This document shows, in pieces, positions 21,946 to 55,294 of a DNA stretch of 64,000 nucleotides. The notes under the pieces were generated by a model. That model saw only the letters and a program-made list of their open reading frames with translations. It had not been told where the DNA came from and searched no databases. The DNA is from Deltaproteobacteria bacterium (lineage in GTDB: Bacteria; UBA10199; JACPAL01): NCBI GenBank assembly GCA_016180845.1, contig JACPAK010000002.1:248001-312000 (forward strand), read 5' to 3'. Made by a program: the position numbers and the translations under genes. Within the stretch, counting starts at the first letter, position 1. Each line of letters starts with the position of its first letter.

Positions 21946-21984
21946 AGATACCCCCCTCTTACACTAAGAGGGGGGTATCTTTTT
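21946..21984 (+). terminator. Strong intrinsic terminator after the lipoprotein gene
   Basis: A perfect 16-bp stem (21946-21961 with 21965-21980), 3-nt loop and a T-run. The stem's CCCCCCTCTT/AAGAGGGGGG core resembles the palindromes found inside shc, carA and carB. It lies in the 206-nt gap between the lipoprotein gene and the next gene; nothing else was recognised in that gap. Confidence 0.9.
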
Positions 21985-29999: not shown

Positions 30000-30229
30000 T
30001 GGGTACCCTTAAAAAAATTATCCGAACCGGTCTTGGCGCCGCCCTGATGACGGAAGAAGGGGTCCGGACGGCACTCACCAATCAGGCCAAACAACGAAAA
30101 GCGGATCTGGAGAATATCATCGCGCGCGAGGTTGGAAAATTCCTGCAGCGGATTAATATCCACCAGGAGATTCGCAAGGCGCTTGAAGGGCTCACGATCG
30201 AGGTGAAGATCAAGGGGTCTAGAAATTAG
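29999..30229 (+). CDS. Small helical protein, phasin-like, unknown
   Basis: 76 residues, amphipathic and largely helical (LTNQAKQRKADLENIIAREV). The start shares its A with the stop codon of the COQ10-like gene (TGATG), so translation is coupled. The look is phasin-like (short coiled helices), but the family was not recognised. It converges on the vWA gene with an 11-bp overlap. Confidence 0.65.
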   Translation: MGTLKKIIRTGLGAALMTEEGVRTALTNQAKQRKADLENIIAREVGKFLQRINIHQEIRKALEGLTIEVKIKGSRN

Positions 30230-31484
30230 ACCGGCGAATCACTTCGTAGCGGATTCCTTTTCGTGTTGCGGCATCCCTCACCTTCACAACAGAATTATCC
30301 CCTGTGCCTTGGGGACAATATTGCTCTAGGCCTTTTATAAAAAAACAGGCTGATTCGTCGTCGGTGATGGCAATAATGACCTTACCAACTTCGTTTAGGG
30401 TTGAAAAGGATTCAGTGTTCATGAGTGCTATTGAGGTGTCCCACGTATATTCAGGACCGGCAGCTGGCTTGGTTTCTATGATCTCTATAGCCTGCTCAAT
30501 TGCAGTTTTCATTGCTGTTAATTCAGCGCTATCAGACAATTCAGAGATTTCGGAATCCGGTTTAAGATGTTTTAAAGGAAAACCAGCCCCCATATAGATC
30601 CATAGCGCGAATGTGACATGTCCCCCTTCAATGACCTGGCTTTGGCCATGCTCCATGATTTGGTCTATCAGGTCCCGAATCTTTTTGGCGTACGGGAGCA
30701 TGCTTCCGGAACGGTCAATCAGGAGGGCGATTTGGTAGTGGTCTTTCTTTTCTCTGAGGGTTAAGTGATCTAAAAGCTGTTGTCCAAATTGGGTCAGACG
30801 TCTTCTATTATCTGGTTCCTCGGCCTCTATGACACGTCCTTGATAGAGACTTGCCGGAAGCTGCTCCAACGGTGTCATCGATTCTCCATCAGAATCCCCT
30901 TTATCTGACCCGTTCGGCTCCCCCTCCTCAGCCGCCTGAGGTGCATCACCCTCCTCGCCCAGTGGGGCATTTGACGACAACGGCCCTCCAAAATTGGCCT
31001 TCGGGGCAGTGATCTTTGGGGTTCCCCTGTTTGAACGAGAGGGATGCTGAGGAGCTTTCTTTTGCGAGTCGACAACCAACTCCGGCCCTTTATTTCTTGT
31101 CGGTTTCGGAGATGTCCCTTCGTTGCCCGGTGGTAGAAAAGGAGGGGGTTCTTTTGGCAACGGAGTTTGAGGTTCCGGTGATACGAACTCAACTTCAATC
31201 ACCTGAGGTTCTTCAGGCTTCTTTGTCAGTCGGGTAAAGAGTTTGAGGAGGCCGATGTGGAGAAGAATGGAGGCGCCGACGTAAGGGTAAAACCGTCGAG
31301 GTTTTCCTCGAGAAAGAACTGCCGCAAAGAGGGTCAAGCTTCCGGAGAGTGAGAATGAGGGGGCTGCAAATTTTTCCCACGACCTTTCCCTCTCTGCTCC
31401 CCCACTCCTTGTTAAGGAGAAGGGGGGCGGGGGGTGAGTTGGTAAAAGTCGACAGTCTACTTTTGATCGAAAATCGATAGTCAT
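30219..31484 (-). CDS. Membrane-anchored von Willebrand factor A (vWA) domain protein
   Basis: 421 residues. A transmembrane segment (about 70-92, YVGASILLHIGLLKL) is followed by a TonB-like acidic/proline linker (about 95-180) and a vWA domain (about 240-421) with a complete MIDAS start, LIDRSGSM. The linker repeats Pro, Gly and Glu. Residues about 15-32 come from a palindromic insert (31388-31438), so the real start may lie downstream. Second gene after shc, with a 20-nt gap. Function unknown; vWA-plus-linker proteins often work in envelope assembly. Confidence 0.8.
   Translation of the reverse strand: MTIDFRSKVDCRLLPTHPPPPFSLTRSGGAERERSWEKFAAPSFSLSGSLTLFAAVLSRGKPRRFYPYVGASILLHIGLLKLFTRLTKKPEEPQVIEVEFVSPEPQTPLPKEPPPFLPPGNEGTSPKPTRNKGPELVVDSQKKAPQHPSRSNRGTPKITAPKANFGGPLSSNAPLGEEGDAPQAAEEGEPNGSDKGDSDGESMTPLEQLPASLYQGRVIEAEEPDNRRRLTQFGQQLLDHLTLREKKDHYQIALLIDRSGSMLPYAKKIRDLIDQIMEHGQSQVIEGGHVTFALWIYMGAGFPLKHLKPDSEISELSDSAELTAMKTAIEQAIEIIETKPAAGPEYTWDTSIALMNTESFSTLNEVGKVIIAITDDESACFFIKGLEQYCPQGTGDNSVVKVRDAATRKGIRYEVIRRSNF
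31388..31438. repeat. Palindromic repeat in the 5' part of the vWA gene
   Basis: Stem formed by CTCCTT/AAGGAG around AAC (minus strand), extended by C-runs and G-runs on either side. It reads in frame as a Pro/Ser-rich then Arg/Glu-rich peptide (PPPPFSLTRSGGAERER). Similar in design, not in sequence, to the shc/carA inserts. Confidence 0.7.
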
Positions 31485-31504: not shown

Positions 31505-33460
31505 TCAGCGGAATTGTTGTGAGTATCTTCCCAATGCAAGCAGTGGAAAATACTGTTGATACCCATGATACCGGATGTAAAAATGCCCCGGAAATCCGGT
31601 ACCGGTGAAATGTCGCTCCTCCCATCGTCCGTTTGCATCCTGAGAATTGATCAAGAATTCAACACCGCGGCGAATTTCTTCGGTGTATAAATCTCCCCCC
31701 GCGGCGATGAGACCTAACAATGCCCAAGCGGTCTGAGAGGGGAGGGAGAGTCCCAATGGAACATAGTGCCCTTCTCGATCCGAGAGGCATGACTCGCCCC
31801 AACCCCCATCCGGATTCTGGATCGATTTGAGCCAATGGACCGCCTTCCGTATCCGCAGATCGTTTTTTGAGATTCCAATCGCTGTGAGACCGACAAGGAC
31901 GGCCCAGGTGCCGTAGATAAAATTGACCCCCCAGCGTCCACGCCAGGAACCATCTGGTTCTTGGGTCTTGAGGAGGAAATTAAGTGCTCGTTTTAAATCC
32001 CCCCCCAACCCCCCTCTTTGCAAAAGAGGGGGGCGAAGGGGGGAGATTTTTCTAAGATCAGCCAACAATTCCAAAACACGTGCCGTGATATCGGGTGTCG
32101 AAGGGTCAAGACAGGCGCCATGATCGGAGAAGGGGATCCTGTTGACCCACGATGAAACGTTGTTCTTATCAAATGCACCCCAACCGCCATTTTTTGATTG
32201 CATCGAGAGGAGCCATTGGAGGCCGCGTTCAATCGCCGGTCTCTTCTCTTGTGTCGGAAGATCGACCGTTCCAAGAAACCGGAGGATCTCAATCGTATCA
32301 TCAACATCGGGAAAATAATCGTTTTGAAACTCAAACGACCATCCGCCGGGCAGGGCGTCTCGATTTTTTTGAGACCAGTCCCCTTTAAGATTGGTGATCT
32401 GTTTTGAAATCAGATAACGAGCCGCCTTAAGCAACTGTGGATCATCCTTTTGTAGGCCGGATTCGAGTAGGGTTCGGGCGACCCATGGGGTGTCCCAAAG
32501 GGGGGAGATACAGCATTGTTGATGGATAAATCCCCCCCCAACCCCCCTCTTTGGCAAAGAGGGGGGCGAAGGGGGGAGATTTTCTTTTTGCCGAAATCTC
32601 TTCAATCCCCCCAGTGCCTTCTGAATCGTCGGATCTGAAAGGGGATACCCGAGCGCCTTGATCGCTAGCGCCGCATACGCCATTGCGGGATAAATATCTT
32701 CAGTCCGTTCGATATGCTCACGAATCCATTTTTCAGCAAGTTGCTCGGCCTTCTTTTTCCCAGGATGCCAGGGAAGTTTTTCTGCATATTTAAGGAGGCG
32801 ATCGAGAAAAAAGAAAATCCCCCCCTCGATCCCCCTCTTTGACAAAGAGGGGGAAGGGGGAGATTTTAATTCGTCGAGGCTGAATGGAATTTCTATCACC
32901 GGTTTCCTGTCCAGGATAATCAAGAGAGGCACAATCGACGCGCGTGCCCAGCTAGAAAACTCATAGATGGAAAAGCCAGACCAGAGAGGGAGCTGCATGA
33001 GCCAAAGAGGCATCGAGGGGCATTCGATCCAGGGGACAAGGCCGAAAAGGGCGAGATGGATCTTTGTAAAAACCCGAACCTGAGAAATCCCTCCAAGCTC
33101 ACAGATCTTTTCACGCGCCTTTTTGAGAGAGGGGTGATCCGGTGGAAATCCGGCGAGTCGAAGGGAAAAATAACACTCGACCGTTATGGAGAGATCGGGA
33201 GGACCGTCAAAGAAAAGCGCCCAGCTTCCGTCAGTACGTTGCAGAGAAAGGATTCTTTGCGACAATCCCCCCTCGATTTCCCGATCGACAGCTCCCAACC
33301 AATGCATGAGTTGGATCAGACCGGCCCCAATCGACTCATTCGCCTCCAGTGTGTACCACCAATAACCTTCAGGCTGTTGATCTTTGAGCAATGCATCCCG
33401 CGCACGACTGATCGCAAGAACCAAAGGATCAAGATCTTCTTTTTGAGCTGGTTGTTGCAT
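31505..33460 (-). CDS. shc: Squalene-hopene cyclase
   Basis: 651 residues; cyclises squalene to hopene for hopanoid membranes. The catalytic DXDD motif is DVDD at residues 385-388 (in YFPDVDDTIEIL). Many QW repeats (for example QSKNGGWGAFD, QEPDGSWRGRWG, QNPDGGWGES, QDANGRWEERH) mark the two alpha-barrels. Three in-frame palindromic inserts lie at residues about 198-215, 293-311 and 471-489, each giving a Pro/Arg/Gly-rich loop. No other hopanoid genes are adjacent. The start codon has no clear ribosome site. Confidence 0.95.
   Translation of the reverse strand: MQQPAQKEDLDPLVLAISRARDALLKDQQPEGYWWYTLEANESIGAGLIQLMHWLGAVDREIEGGLSQRILSLQRTDGSWALFFDGPPDLSITVECYFSLRLAGFPPDHPSLKKAREKICELGGISQVRVFTKIHLALFGLVPWIECPSMPLWLMQLPLWSGFSIYEFSSWARASIVPLLIILDRKPVIEIPFSLDELKSPPSPSLSKRGIEGGIFFFLDRLLKYAEKLPWHPGKKKAEQLAEKWIREHIERTEDIYPAMAYAALAIKALGYPLSDPTIQKALGGLKRFRQKENLPPSPPSLPKRGVGGGFIHQQCCISPLWDTPWVARTLLESGLQKDDPQLLKAARYLISKQITNLKGDWSQKNRDALPGGWSFEFQNDYFPDVDDTIEILRFLGTVDLPTQEKRPAIERGLQWLLSMQSKNGGWGAFDKNNVSSWVNRIPFSDHGACLDPSTPDITARVLELLADLRKISPLRPPLLQRGGLGGDLKRALNFLLKTQEPDGSWRGRWGVNFIYGTWAVLVGLTAIGISKNDLRIRKAVHWLKSIQNPDGGWGESCLSDREGHYVPLGLSLPSQTAWALLGLIAAGGDLYTEEIRRGVEFLINSQDANGRWEERHFTGTGFPGHFYIRYHGYQQYFPLLALGRYSQQFR
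31994..32050. repeat. Palindromic repeat, CTCTTT/AAAGAG G-run family, shc copy 1
   Basis: C-run, CCCCCCTCTTT, short loop, AAAGAGGGGGG, then GGGGGG and ATTT. Reads in frame in shc (minus) as SPLRPPLLQRGGLGG. Other copies are at 32528, 32815, 50206 and, shortened, 53238. Confidence 0.88.
32528..32583. repeat. Palindromic repeat, same family, shc copy 2
   Basis: Nearly identical to the first copy; reads PPSPPSLPKRGVGGG in frame. Confidence 0.88.
32815..32867. repeat. Palindromic repeat, same family, shc copy 3
   Basis: Slightly diverged copy with CCCCCTCTTTG/CAAAGAGGGGG arms; reads PPSPSLSKRGIEGG in frame. Confidence 0.85.
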
Positions 33461-48407: not shown

Positions 48408-49705
48408 AGCGATCCCTTTTAATTAAAAATGGTTACCTGATCGATCCTCTGAATCGGAAAAAAGGGAACTACGACCTTTTTATCAACGGAGATCGGATTA
48501 TTGAGATCGCACGAACTCTCCGTCATCAGGCTGATCAAGTGATTGATGCCAAAGGGATGGTTGTTTGCCCCGGTTTTATTGATCTTCATACCCACCTCCG
48601 GGAGCCTGGATTTGAATATAAAGAAACAATCCGGACGGGGACGGAAGCGGCAGCGGCGGGTGGTTTTACGACGATTGTCTGTATGGCAAACACCCAACCG
48701 GTCAATGACAATGCCGTCATCACGGAATTCATCCGTGAAAAGGCAAGGAGTGAGGGGATTGTCAATGTCTTGCCGGTTGGCTCTATTTCACGAGGACTCA
48801 AGGGAGAGGCACTCTCGGATATTGGTCAAATGGCCGAGGCGGGGATAATTGGAATCTCCGATGATGGAAAAACAGTCATGAATAGCGCCTTGATGAGAAA
48901 GGCGCTCCAGTATGCCCGCGGGTTTGAACTGCTGGTGATCAGCCATTGTGAGGATGAAAATCTCTCCGGGGAATCTTCGATTAACGAGGGGCTTGTGGCG
49001 ACAGAGTTGGGTCTTCCTGGGTCCCCCAATGCCGCCGAGGAGTTGATGATTGCTCGGGATATCGCGTTGGCAGAATTGACGAAGGCACGGCTTCATATCG
49101 CCCATCTGACGACCCGTGTCGGTCTTGAGCTTGTTGCCGCCGCGAAAAAGAGGGGGGTGCGGGTTACCTGTGAGGCAACTCCCCACCACCTGACGCTTAC
49201 GGACGAGGATGTACGGGGGTATCGACGAAGTTGCAAGGTTCGCCCTCCGTTACGAACCGATGAGGATCGACGCGCCCTTCTGAAAGGGATTCAGGAGGGG
49301 ATTGTCGATGCGATCGCAACCGATCATGCCCCTCATGCCACTTTCGAAAAAGAAATTGAATTTGTGAATGCCTCCAACGGGATCATCGGTCTCGAGACGG
49401 CGCTCCCTGTCATGCTCGGTTTTGTCCAGAAGAAGCAGCTGACGTTAGATAAGTTGCTTCATCTTCTCACCGCAGGACCTGCGGCGGTTCTGGGTCTTAA
49501 GGCCAAAGGGCATCTGGGAGAGGGAAGGGCGGACGCCGATCTTGTCCTATTTGATCCCGAAGAGACGGTCGTGATCGATGCCTCAAAATTTCGTTCGAAG
49601 TCAAGAAACTGCCCCTTTGACGGCTGGAAGCTAAAGGGGAAGGTTCACCAAACTATTGTCGGAGGAAAGGTCGTTTATGACAAAGGCACTTCTGATTTTA
49701 GCTGA
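48404..49705 (+). CDS. pyrC: Dihydroorotase
   Basis: 433 residues from ATG 48404, preceded by GGGGGAAGAG; the GTG at 48392 is less likely. Cyclises carbamoyl-aspartate. Motifs: [18 protein letters not shown] (metal His), [14 protein letters not shown] and [13 protein letters not shown]. The length and motifs fit the long (type I) dihydroorotases that often associate with PyrB. Its 3' end overlaps carA by 29 nt. Confidence 0.96.
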
Positions 49706-50816
49706 CGGAACGACCTTTGAAGGGGAATCGTTTGGTTACGAGACTGAGGCAATCGGCGAAGTCGTCTTCAACACCAGCATGACCGGTTATCAGGAGATCC
49801 TGACCGATCCTTCGTATAAGGGACAAATTATCGTGATGACCTATCCGGAGATCGGAAATTACGGCGTGAACAAGGAAGATGTCGAATCCTGGCGCCCGTT
49901 TGTCGAAGGATTTGTCGTGAGGCATTACAATCCTGTTTTTTCCAACTTTCGCTCAAAGCTTGACCTCGGCAGTTATCTCAAGAAAAACAAAATCCCTGCC
50001 GTAGAGGGGATCGATACGAGGGCGTTGACGAGACTCTTGAGGGACAAGGGGTCGCAGATCGGGATCCTTTCTGCAGGTGGCCAGGATAAAAAGAGACTCC
50101 TGAAAAAGGTCCGGGAGGCACCAACGATGGTAGGACGAGATCTCGTCAAAGAGGTGACGTGCGAGAGACCGTATCGGTGGAAGGAGGGGGTGTGGAACCT
50201 TCGAAAAAATCCCCCCCCAACCCCCCTCTTTGACAAAGAGGGGGGCGAAGGGGGGAGATTTAAGGTCATCGCCTACGACTTCGGCATTAAACGCAACATC
50301 CTCCGAAACCTTGTTGATGTCGGGTGCGACGTCACTGTCGTCCCTGCTTCAACAACTGCCAATAAGGCCCTCGCGATGAAGCCGGATGGGATCTTCCTCT
50401 CGAATGGTCCCGGGGATCCGGAACCGGTGACTTATGCGATCGAGACAATCCGTCAGCTAATCGGAAAAGTTCCTATTTTTGGAATCTGTCTGGGGCATCA
50501 ACTGATTGGCCTCTCCTTGGGAGGCAAAACCTATAAACTTAAATTCGGACATCATGGAGGGAATCAACCTGTCATGGATCTTCAAACGAGGAAGGTAGAA
50601 ATTACGGCACAGAATCATGGATTCGCTGTCGATACCGATTCGTTAAAGGGGAGGGCGGAACTGACCCATATCAACCTGAATGATCACTCGGTTGAGGGGC
50701 TCCGATCTACACGTGACCCTGTCTTCTCCGTCCAATACCATCCCGAGGCCTCACCGGGACCGCATGATGCAAACTATCTCTTTAAACGCTTCGTCGAAAT
50801 GATGAACCCATGTTGA
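49677..50816 (+). CDS. carA: Carbamoyl-phosphate synthase small subunit
   Basis: 379 residues from ATG 49677, preceded by GGAGGAAAGG at good spacing. Releases ammonia from glutamine for CarB. Small N-terminal domain (about 1-165) and class I glutamine amidotransferase domain (about 197-375) with the nucleophile Cys in [13 protein letters not shown] and His/Glu in [14 protein letters not shown] palindromic insert (residues about 177-195, [15 protein letters not shown]) fills the linker between the domains without breaking the frame. Overlaps ilvA by 7 nt. Confidence 0.96.
50206..50262. repeat. Palindromic repeat, CTCTTT/AAAGAG G-run family, inside carA
   Basis: Almost identical to the shc copies but in the opposite orientation relative to the host frame; reads [15 protein letters not shown] in frame. 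Arms CCCCCCTCTTTG/CAAAGAGGGGGG. Confidence 0.88.
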
Positions 50817-52012: not shown

Positions 52013-55000
52013 ATGCCCAAACGAACCGACTTGAAAAAAATCATGCTGATCGGTTCCGGTCCGATCGTGATCGGTCAGGCGTGTGAGTTTGATTATTCCG
52101 GGACTCAGGCCTGCAAGGCGCTCAAGGCCGAGGGGTATGAGGTTGTCCTGATCAATTCCAACCCCGCGACCATCATGACCGATCCTGAAGTCGCCGATCG
52201 CACCTATATTGAACCGATCACACCGGAGGTGATCCAGCAGATTATTGAAAAGGAGCGGCCTCAGGCGCTCCTGCCGACGCTCGGGGGCCAGACGGCGTTA
52301 AATCAGGCGGTCATCTTGGCCGAGAGTGGGGTGTTGGATCGCTATCAGGTCGAGCTCATTGGCGCCAAATTGCCAGCGATAAAAAAGGCAGAGGATCGGC
52401 AGCTTTTTAAGGAGGCGATGAAAAAGATCGGTCTCGAAGTCCCCACAAGCGGACTAGCCCATTCGATGAAGGAGGCCTGGAAGGTTCTAAAAACCACTGG
52501 GTATCCGGCGATCATCCGACCTGCCTTTACGCTTGGGGGGAGTGGTGGAAATATTGCCAGAAACAAAAAAGAATTCGCCGAATATGCGCAGTGGGGGATC
52601 GATTGTAGTCCCGTAAGACAAATCCTGATCGAAGAATCAGCGCTTGGCTGGAAGGAATATGAGCTCGAGGTGATGCGTGATGGCAAGGATAATGTCGTCA
52701 TTATTTGCTCGATTGAAAATTTTGATCCGATGGGAATTCATACCGGAGATTCTATAACCGTCGCACCGGCACAGACACTCACAGACAAGGAATATCAGAT
52801 CATGCGGGATGCTGCGATCCGGATCATTCGAGAGATTGGTGTCGACACCGGTGGATCCAATATCCAGTTTGCGATCCATCCGAAAACCGGTCGGATGGTG
52901 GTGATCGAGATGAATCCGCGGGTTTCACGAAGTTCCGCCCTCGCCTCGAAGGCGACCGGATTTCCGATCGCGAAGATCGCGACGAAACTCGCCGTCGGAT
53001 ACACCCTGGATGAGATCCTGAATGACATTACACGATCGACACCTGCCTGCTTTGAACCAACAATTGACTATGTCGTGACGAAAATCCCCCGGTTTACGTT
53101 TGAAAAGTTCCCCGAGGCGGAATCGACTCTGACGACCCAGATGAAATCGGTGGGTGAGGTGATGGCGATCGGAAGGACATTTCAGGAGTCATTACAGAAG
53201 GGGATGCGGGCGTTAGAGACTGGGAGTGCCGGGTTTGAAAATCCCCCCATCCCCCCTTTGTCAAAGGGGGGTATGATGGAATTTATTCGAAAGAAATTGA
53301 AAAACCCCAATTCGGAACGGCTTTGGTACATCGGAGAGGCGTTTCGACGTAGGTATTCTGTTCAAGAGATCTATCGACTCACCAAGATCGATCCCTGGTT
53401 TCTGAACCATATCCGGGAGATCATCCGGTGTGAAAGAAAATTAAAACGTGTAGGGGCGTATGGCGATACGCCCTTACAAAAAAGACATTTAATGGATGCC
53501 AAACGGGCCGGTTTTTCGGATCGAAGGATCGCAAAACTCTGGGACACAACAGAAGAGGTCGTTCGCAAGAGGCGAGAGAGGGGAAATATCCGACCGGTCT
53601 ATAAGAGGGTTGACACTTGTGGCGCCGAATTTGTGGCACATACCCCGTATCTTTATTCCACCTATGAGACGGAGGATGAATCTGATCCAACGCAAAAGAA
53701 AAAGGTCGTCATCCTGGGAAGCGGTCCTAATCGAATCGGGCAGGGGATTGAGTTTGATTATTGTTGTGTCCAGGCAAGCATTGGCCTTCAGGAGGAGGGG
53801 TTCGAGACGATCATGGTAAATTGTAACCCGGAGACCGTTTCCACCGATTACGACACCTCGGACCGACTCTATTTCGAGCCACTGACCTTTGAAGATGTGA
53901 TGAATATTCTTGAGACGGAGAGGCCTGATGGGGTGATTGTCCAGATGGGAGGGCAGACCCCCCTTAAACTCGCTGTTCCGTTGAAGAAGGCTGGCGTGAA
54001 GATCTTGGGAACCTCCCCGGAATCGATTGATCGTGCCGAAGACCGAAAACTCTTCGCCGCCTTAATCCATAAATTGGGTCTCAGACAGCCCGAAAATGGG
54101 ACTGCACGTTCCGAGGAGGAGGCGGTCGAGATTGCGAGAAAACTCGGTTTTCCGGTCCTGGTCCGTCCTTCTTATGTCCTTGGTGGTCGTGGGATGGCGA
54201 TCGCGCATATTGAGGAATATTTGAGAAAGTTTATGAAGAAGGCGACGGAAGTCACACCCGAACATCCGGTATTGATCGATAAGTTTCTTTCCACCGCTAT
54301 TGAGGTCGATGTTGATGCCCTTTGCGATGGTGAGCAGGTGGTGATTGCCGGGATCATGGAACATATCGAGGAGGCGGGGATCCACTCCGGGGATAGCGCT
54401 GCTTGTCTGCCCCCATTTTCACTTCCTCCGAAGATGATTGCCGAGATTACAGAGGCGACAAAACTTTTGGCACGCGAGTTGAAGGTCATCGGTCTGATTA
54501 ATATTCAGTTTGCGATTCAAAAGTCCCAACTTTACATCCTCGAGGTGAATCCAAGGGCCTCGCGAACGGTCCCCTTTATTTCAAAGGCGACAGGGGTTCC
54601 GATCGCCCGGATCGCTTCAAAACTGATGGTCGGTCGAAAATTAAGAGATTTTGATTTGAAGGGACTCGAGGAGCCGGATTACTTCTCGGTCAAGGAGTCT
54701 GTATTTCCTTTTCAGAAATTTCCTGGAGTTGATACCCTGCTGGGGCCCGAAATGAAGTCAACAGGAGAGGTGATGGGGATCGGTCAAGATTTTGGTGTTG
54801 CCTTCGCGAAGTCTCAGATCGCCGCTGGCAACATATTGCCACTCCAGGGAAAGATTTTTTTGAGCGTGAAGGATTCCGATAAGCCGCTTATTGGTGGAAT
54901 TGTCAAAAAACTCCTCAGGGCCGGTTTTTCAATTGTCGCGACACGAGGGACGGCGAATTATCTTCGAGGGGCGGATATGCCCACGGAGATCATTAATAAA

Positions 55001-55294
55001 GTGGCGGAAGGAAGTCCTCATATTGTGGAGGCGCTTGAGAGAGGCGAAATTACGATGGTGATCAATACGGTGGAAGGACGGATTCCCGCCCTCGACTCCT
55101 TTTCGATCCGCAGAACGACATTGATGAAAGGGATTCCTTATTTCACAACCATCTCAGCAGCGATGGCAGCGGTCGATGGAATTCTGGCCATGAAAGAGAA
55201 GGGGCTGACCGTCCGGTCGATTCAGGAATATCATCAGAGGGCCAGAACATCAGTATCGTCGCATAAGATATATTATGTCAAATCACTTCACTGA
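52013..55294 (+). CDS. carB: Carbamoyl-phosphate synthase large subunit
   Basis: 1093 residues. Makes carbamoyl phosphate from bicarbonate, ammonia and two ATP. Two homologous ATP-grasp halves (about 1-400 and 555-935: [33 protein letters not shown]), an oligomerisation segment between, and a C-terminal MGS-like regulatory domain (about 940-1093). Two in-frame palindromic inserts lie in the oligomerisation segment: residues about 409-420 and 480-488 ([11 protein letters not shown]). The ATG follows the ilvA stop codon with no gap. It converges with a 7-bp overlap on an orphan membrane gene. Confidence 0.97.
53238..53272. repeat. Shortened palindromic repeat, G-run family, inside carB
   Basis: CCCCCCTTTGTCAAAGGGGGG with a preceding C-run; lacks the distal G-run. 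Reads [12 protein letters not shown] in frame. Confidence 0.8.
53450..53477. repeat. Palindromic repeat, GAYGDTPL family, inside carB
   Basis: Stem GTAGGGGCGTAT/ATACGCCCTTAC (one G-T pair) with loop GGCG; reads VGAYGDTPL in frame, as in ygfZ (19547-19574). Confidence 0.85.

Follow-up and report, generated by a model that had tools for sequence, protein, structure and literature searches.

In-frame palindromes in permissive loops of squalene-hopene cyclase and other conserved bacterial enzymes, with a DUF559 nuclease as their candidate mobility partner

The 64,000-nucleotide stretch of DNA analysed here (the window; contig JACPAK010000002.1, positions 248,001 to 312,000, assembly GCA_016180845.1 of a Deltaproteobacteria bacterium) contains a squalene-hopene cyclase (SHC) gene that carries three palindromic elements without loss of the reading frame. 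Protein-coding palindromes lying in frame within genes are known from Rickettsia and from other bacteria (PMC2229807, PMC10969869, PMC3733652), and by themselves the SHC inserts add one more case. All three had been reported in a preliminary description of the window and were confirmed in the open reading frame (ORF) of 651 amino acids (aa), which matches the Pfam families SQHop_cyclase_N (E 3e-100) and SQHop_cyclase_C (E 1.5e-124) and encodes a protein related to 1gsz/2sqc. Two additional copies were found in the window, one in carA and a truncated one in carB (Table 1).

Table 1. Genes of the window that carry palindromes, and the copies within them (window coordinates)
Feature	Position	Strand	Basis and remarks
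SHC gene, 651 aa, with three palindromes inside	31505..33460	-	ORF, Pfam, AlphaFold2 and PDB match
Palindrome copy, site C, 55 nt	31995..32049	-	In frame in SHC; residues about 471-489
Palindrome copy, site B, 55 nt	32528..32582	-	In frame in SHC; residues about 293-312
Palindrome copy, site A, 52-nt subfamily	32815..32866	-	In frame in SHC; residues about 198-216, LKSPPSPSLSKRGIEGGIF
carA open frame (stop to stop)	49635..50813	+	CPSase_sm_chain and GATase; palindrome in frame between these two Pfam domains
Fourth copy, in carA	50207..50261	+	In frame; one or two loop bases differ from both 55-nt SHC copies
carB open frame (stop to stop)	52013..55291	+	CPSase_L domains; partial copy just upstream of the oligomerisation domain
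Truncated copy in carB, lacking the right outer arm	53239..53275	+	In frame

The SHC copies are nested palindromes of 52-55 nt with the layout AAATCCCCCC-hairpin-GGGGGGATTT: AAATC and a C-run are followed by a short spacer, a C-run-CTCTTT/AAAGAG-G-run hairpin, a further spacer and a G-run with GATTT. The C-run, CTCTTT/AAAGAG stem and G-run described earlier were seen in all three; the copies at sites C and B are 96% identical, and that at site A represents a shorter subfamily. Folding of four copies, three from SHC and one from carA, gave hairpins of -37 to -44 kcal/mol, all with z = -4.2 to -5.8 versus shuffles. The core pattern CCCCNCTTTN{1,6}AAAGNGGG gave 54-55 matches in the source genome (G000; 2,126,736 bases, 98.3% complete) versus 0 for the reversed control, and for these two reasons the SHC palindromes are not a product of chance.

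The SHC protein appears to accommodate the inserts. Its AlphaFold2 model (pLDDT 85.6, pTM 0.88) has 3sqc as the closest PDB structure (TM 0.89/0.94), and model confidence falls below 50 only at residues 1-7, 204-210, 294-308 and 482-485, which are the N terminus and the insides of the three inserts. The catalytic DVDDT motif is kept, with D385, D387 and D388 invariant in 27 sequences. An intact fold with all three inserts in place is predicted by the model, and the enzyme is likely to be still active.

It had been proposed that each copy adds about 15-19 residues to the protein. This was not borne out when loop lengths were taken as the distance between fixed anchors and compared with 28 relatives: the loop at site A is 7 residues shorter (-7, median), that at site B 6 residues shorter (-6, range -23 to +16), and only that at site C is longer, by an almost constant +11 residues against nearly all relatives. 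Simple addition of 15-19 residues per insert is thereby ruled out. In 15 other host genes, elements of 9-20 aa went with a net gain of mostly +2 to +10 aa relative to most homologues that lack a palindrome. As the anchored loops have changed by less than the length of the element, the palindromes have largely replaced native loop residues; either native bases were lost at insertion or the loops were trimmed later. Around the copies, no k-mer or offset indicative of a target-site duplication stood clearly above expectation, the weak excesses at some offsets being uncorrected for multiple tests; for coding palindromes such as RPEs, target-site duplication is entered as unknown in a review table (PMC2229807).

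The G000 inserts are absent from 28 SHC proteins of the same class, including, at sites B and C, that of a genome of the same family, and no case of the same peptide at the same place, coded without a palindrome in a distant lineage, was found among the 28. It is therefore extremely improbable that SHC inherited the three peptides from an ancestor as old, functional insertions: such an origin would agree with their being in frame and with the variability of the loops across the SHC family, but near-identical DNA also lies in carA and in further G000 genes.

A covariance model built from 13 copies was used to score 150 candidates in G000, among which it gave 112 strand hits corresponding to 59 places. 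About ten of these were read as a second family (CCCCCTCTTA..TAAGAG) or as weak matches, so that about 50 family loci remain on this reading. Near-identical copies occur in carA, in SHC and at other loci, and L011 and L013 have one common unit; therefore, the spread was recent on an evolutionary scale. The active spread suggested previously thus stands as regards spread itself, which may or may not be ongoing. Family copies occur in both orientations, and the length from AATC to GATT is 41, 44, 47, 50 or 53 nt, all 2 mod 3, in the majority of full-length copies (23/31 rows of the comparison). The family's ends are AAATC/GATTT, with neither a GTAG nor a CGTC tag.

To call copies in frame, open frames through each place were collected, the ORFs were read and a Pfam scan was made. 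In-frame copies within genes number at least 29, which bears out the comparison with RPEs made at the outset, and 28 of them are distributed over 26 genes that have Pfam matches: SHC (three copies), metH, a CCG Fe-S protein, a radical SAM protein, an Rsm22-like methyltransferase, a manA-type isomerase, an ispE-like kinase, a DUF2400 protein, prmC, a rluD-type gene, carA, a mqnA-type gene, carB, a ubiE-type gene, nadE, ligA, a folC-type gene, a histone-deacetylase-like protein, purL, a nadD-type gene, a hemW-type gene, miaA, purH, murF, a nitrite/sulfite reductase and a tsaB-type protein. Another in-frame copy is located in an ORF of 834 aa that has no Pfam match, and about 14 in-frame copies lie within a single Pfam domain envelope. 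The thiC gene ends in one further family copy, and the remaining places are intergenic or have no assigned gene. Several of the host genes are single-copy essentials in most bacteria, and the proteins are therefore very likely made and functional with the peptide. At G000:C5:72782 (L116 around 2883), a copy stands at the very start of an open thiH-like frame, before which no in-frame sequence for the N-terminal part of ThiH is present; the gene may have been truncated by this copy.

The loops concerned carry other palindromes in relatives. At SHC site A, a palindrome is present in G001 (CCCCTTAAAATAAGGGG); at site B, palindromes are present in G032 (same superfamily as the G000 copies) and in G030 (another family); and at site C, in G032, L136 and G037, the last again of another family. 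For 16 other genes, compared in four genomes, the G000 inserts were not found in the relatives' copies, and the sites are not conserved. Nevertheless, the relatives had 11 palindromes in 1,596 aa of site windows versus 8 in 9,046 aa of flanking sequence (odds ratio 7.8, p 2e-5), and these palindromes fall into at least four sequence families, of the CCCCTCTCCCC, CCCCCTCTTA, CCCCCTTTG and GGGGC/GTAGGGGC types. Therefore, the same permissive loops have been hit independently, in keeping with the tolerant target envisaged in the preliminary description, as the relatives' SHC loops and those of other genes carry palindromes more often than the flanks do. At the position of the carB copy, the relatives G002 and G003 have different insertions. 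Different REPs have likewise been reported at about one site in recB of two Xanthomonas species (PMC3733652).

In G003 and G032, the superfamily occurs in frame in genes resembling nuoG, tgt, yggS and mutL, named here from their sequence, and in G046, which belongs to another phylum, copies lie in short or unassigned frames. In the SHC of G037 (L069/L146), the site C loop contains the unrelated palindrome CGCTCAGGATTGACCCTGAGCG, coding NPSTRSPLASSLRIDPERM. Taken as a whole, the family consists of RPE-like protein-coding palindromes that are multi-copy and dispersed, and that conserved enzymes tolerate in frame in their variable, surface-type loops. The hairpins might instead be kept for a function in RNA or translation, such as pausing or mRNA stability, rather than as selfish DNA, and RNA hairpins of this stability would suit that role; it is nonetheless very unlikely, given the occurrence of both orientations, the lack of site conservation in relatives, the unrelated host genes and the finding that no Rfam family came near its gathering threshold in the region.

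A first candidate for what moves the palindromes is the RAYT (Y1, IS200/IS605-like) transposase of REP/REPIN elements. Like REPINs, the present elements are short, dispersed, hairpin-forming and sometimes arranged as inverted doublets (PMC3116915). However, G000 has 0 Y1_Tnp matches, at 98.3% completeness and with 5/14 control genomes positive, and the GTAG or CGTC end tag (PMC3733652) is absent. A REP/REPIN-RAYT origin is thus largely refuted and to be regarded as highly improbable, and would be reopened by a RAYT gene in the missing 1.7% of the genome.

The second is a nuclease of the DUF559 family, which was absent from the preliminary description and was added by the follow-up analysis. 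The only DUF559 gene of G000 (ORF at G000:C1:414582-414902) was found while reading longer family members: at locus L090 (G000:C1:414395-415060), it lies between nested family members of 100-150 bp with two internal hairpins, and the palindrome upstream includes CCCTCTTTGACAAAGAGGG, which forms the core of both the third SHC copy and the carA copy. DUF559 genes (PF04480) are present in the genomes of 24/45 relatives. A C-run/G-run palindrome within 160 bp was found on both sides of 27/48 DUF559 loci versus 0/122 control genes (p 1.3e-18), and on at least one side of 41/48 versus 13/122; among random spans, 1/870 had such palindromes on both sides. The flanking pairs at DUF559 loci are inverted, with both members from one sequence family, and in G015, G033 and G035 the layout is hairpin-GGGGGGATTT-DUF559-AAATCCCCCC-hairpin. 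Furthermore, G015 contains, among 242 core copies, doublets about 97 bp apart that have the same ends as the DUF559 units and no gene.

Across genomes, exact copies of either of two palindrome cores were present in 21/24 genomes with DUF559 versus 6/21 without (p 7e-5), and DUF559 and palindrome copies were correlated (Spearman 0.64). For the CCCCCTTT family, the two-sided match of the DUF559 flank family to the genome's copy number holds (p 0.002-0.012). An independent set of 26 contigs from viral collections and 10 plasmids (Azospirillum, Deinococcus, Shinella, Sinorhizobium, Sphingomonas and cyanobacteria) gave the same picture, with palindromes on at least one side of 27/36 DUF559 genes versus 3/34 small plasmid genes, and on both sides of 15/36 versus 0/34. 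Thus, DUF559 genes lie between inverted palindrome copies in this class and in other phyla, and the gene-less doublets are multi-copy. In the alignment, residues of catalytic type are conserved (E15, D44, E55, D57 and H61 in first-row numbering), and a solved relative exists (3hrl, E 1e-27). DUF559 is a Vsr-like/EDxHD nuclease family by sequence, and site-specific cleavage is predicted; one paper terms a DUF559 gene an EDxHD homing endonuclease (PMC9403480).

Larger structures were also seen. L090, L101 and L110 (G000:C1:414951, C2:219159, C3:250940) contain elements of roughly 120-155 bp with two hairpins and the layout AAATCCCCCC-(about 25)-hairpin-(about 25-35)-hairpin-(about 25)-GGGGGGATTT, and CCCCACTTTG.. 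half-copies in purL, nadD and the histone-deacetylase-like gene resemble single ends of these elements. In the DUF559 units at L312, L321 and L322 (G008, G035 and G033), a further inverted repeat, GAGTGGGTAAA/TTTACCCACT, encloses the hairpins at some distance and possibly marks a larger carrier element.

On the basis of the association, the layout and the gene-less derivatives, DUF559 is proposed to be the mobility partner of the palindromes, playing for them the part that RAYT plays for REPs. The autonomous form would be a DUF559 gene between two inverted half-elements, from which gene-less doublets and single hairpins would derive and spread in trans. The nuclease would cut DNA at or near the target, and the break would be repaired by copying in the palindrome with loss of some native bases, which might explain why target-site duplications are missing and why the net gain falls short of the element's length. 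Only insertions that are in frame and in tolerant loops would survive selection, and SHC may have collected three copies because it has three long variable loops in which such selection could operate. Neither the link between DUF559 and palindromes nor the reuse of the same loops by unrelated palindromes was found in the literature searched, which excluded most subscription journals and in which no paper mentioning DUF559 had repeats as its subject, judged from title or abstract.

A different possibility is that RPE-like repeats are moved by another, perhaps lost, transposase, and that DUF559 is a homing-type parasite inserting into palindromes, or cargo. EDxHD enzymes are known as homing endonucleases that spread their own gene (PMC3943268, PMC9403480), and G032 has many copies with no DUF559 match, so that the nuclease either is not needed to keep copies or has been lost. 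Yet DUF559 lies exactly between inverted pairs of one family, and gene-less derivatives with those very ends are multi-copy; the arrangement is the autonomous/non-autonomous layout of mobile elements, and this alternative as a whole seems unlikely, if still worth considering. It should be noted that, besides the case of G032, further points weigh against the proposal made here. For the CCCTCTCCC family, the copy number of genomes whose DUF559 gene it flanks does not clearly exceed that of other DUF559 genomes (p 0.11), and no correction for common descent was applied to the genome statistics. An alternative to replacement of the loops at insertion is that the element went in cleanly and the loop was trimmed afterwards. 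Finally, the insertion events, expression, cleavage, dependence on DUF559 and the repair route are inferred. Nevertheless, dispersed palindromes that occupy permissive loops and are mobilised by a DUF559 nuclease, with SHC still active, are considered the probable explanation, with moderate confidence. It is an evenly balanced question whether free-standing DUF559 (EDxHD) nucleases and C-run/G-run palindromes together form a widespread class of bacterial mobile elements in which the nuclease gene lies between inverted hairpins, gene-less doublets and single hairpins are spread in trans by cut-and-repair, and the single hairpins give rise to new in-frame peptides in permissive loops of housekeeping proteins across phyla.

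Two other palindromes of the window deserve mention. A second family (ACCCCCCTCTTACACTAAGAGGGGGGT) is represented at 21949-21980, apparently between genes; the genome contains 8 copies of it, most of them apparently lying outside genes, perhaps since several frames are closed by its TAA stops. A degenerate C/G-rich palindrome at 31380-31441, close to where the neighbouring ORF 30219-31484 starts (residues PTHPPPPFSLTRSGGAERERS), is perhaps a decayed copy.

The movement of protein-coding palindromes such as RPEs does not appear to be settled. If DUF559 does move palindromes of the present type, the matter could be tested with a single small protein and a single short DNA, and orphan coding palindromes would gain a mobility mechanism that is analogous to, yet distinct from, REP-RAYT. 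In that case, a large uncharacterised nuclease family would have a common function, many odd Pro/Gly-rich peptides in metagenome proteins (PPLSKGG, PLPLAGEG) would be explained, and a natural catalogue of essential-enzyme loops that accept new peptides would become available.

Among known systems, RPEs and other coding palindromes are similar in that they occur in frame in many unrelated conserved genes and also between genes, are open in most frames and are tolerated by the host protein (PMC2229807, PMC10969869). However, the present family is shorter (41-55 nt versus about 105-150), has C-run/G-run arms, belongs to another bacterial lineage, occupies loops that are used by several sequence families and has a candidate nuclease partner; moreover, Rickettsia RPEs proper have a CGTC terminal tag (reported for RPE-4/RPE-6, PMC3733652), whereas this family ends in AAATC/GATTT. 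REP/REPIN-RAYT systems also comprise short hairpins as singlets and inverted doublets, with non-coding copies around the partner gene (PMC3116915), but here the candidate partner is DUF559 and not Y1, no GTAG and no RAYT were found, and the copies in G000 are mostly intragenic. Bacterial MITEs (Correia, ERIC, QMITE1) are likewise non-autonomous dispersed repeats, sometimes with in-frame gene fusions (PMC2229807, PMC10969869), in contrast to which this family is much shorter, without a consistent target-site duplication, and no parent IS was found. With EDxHD (Vsr-like) homing endonucleases such as I-Bth0305I, DUF559 shares its reported membership of the EDxHD group (PMC9403480) and has the free-standing PDB relative 3hrl; unlike I-Bth0305I, the DUF559 proteins described here are free-standing, about 110-150 aa long and encoded outside introns and inteins, and their genes are bracketed by multi-copy palindromes.
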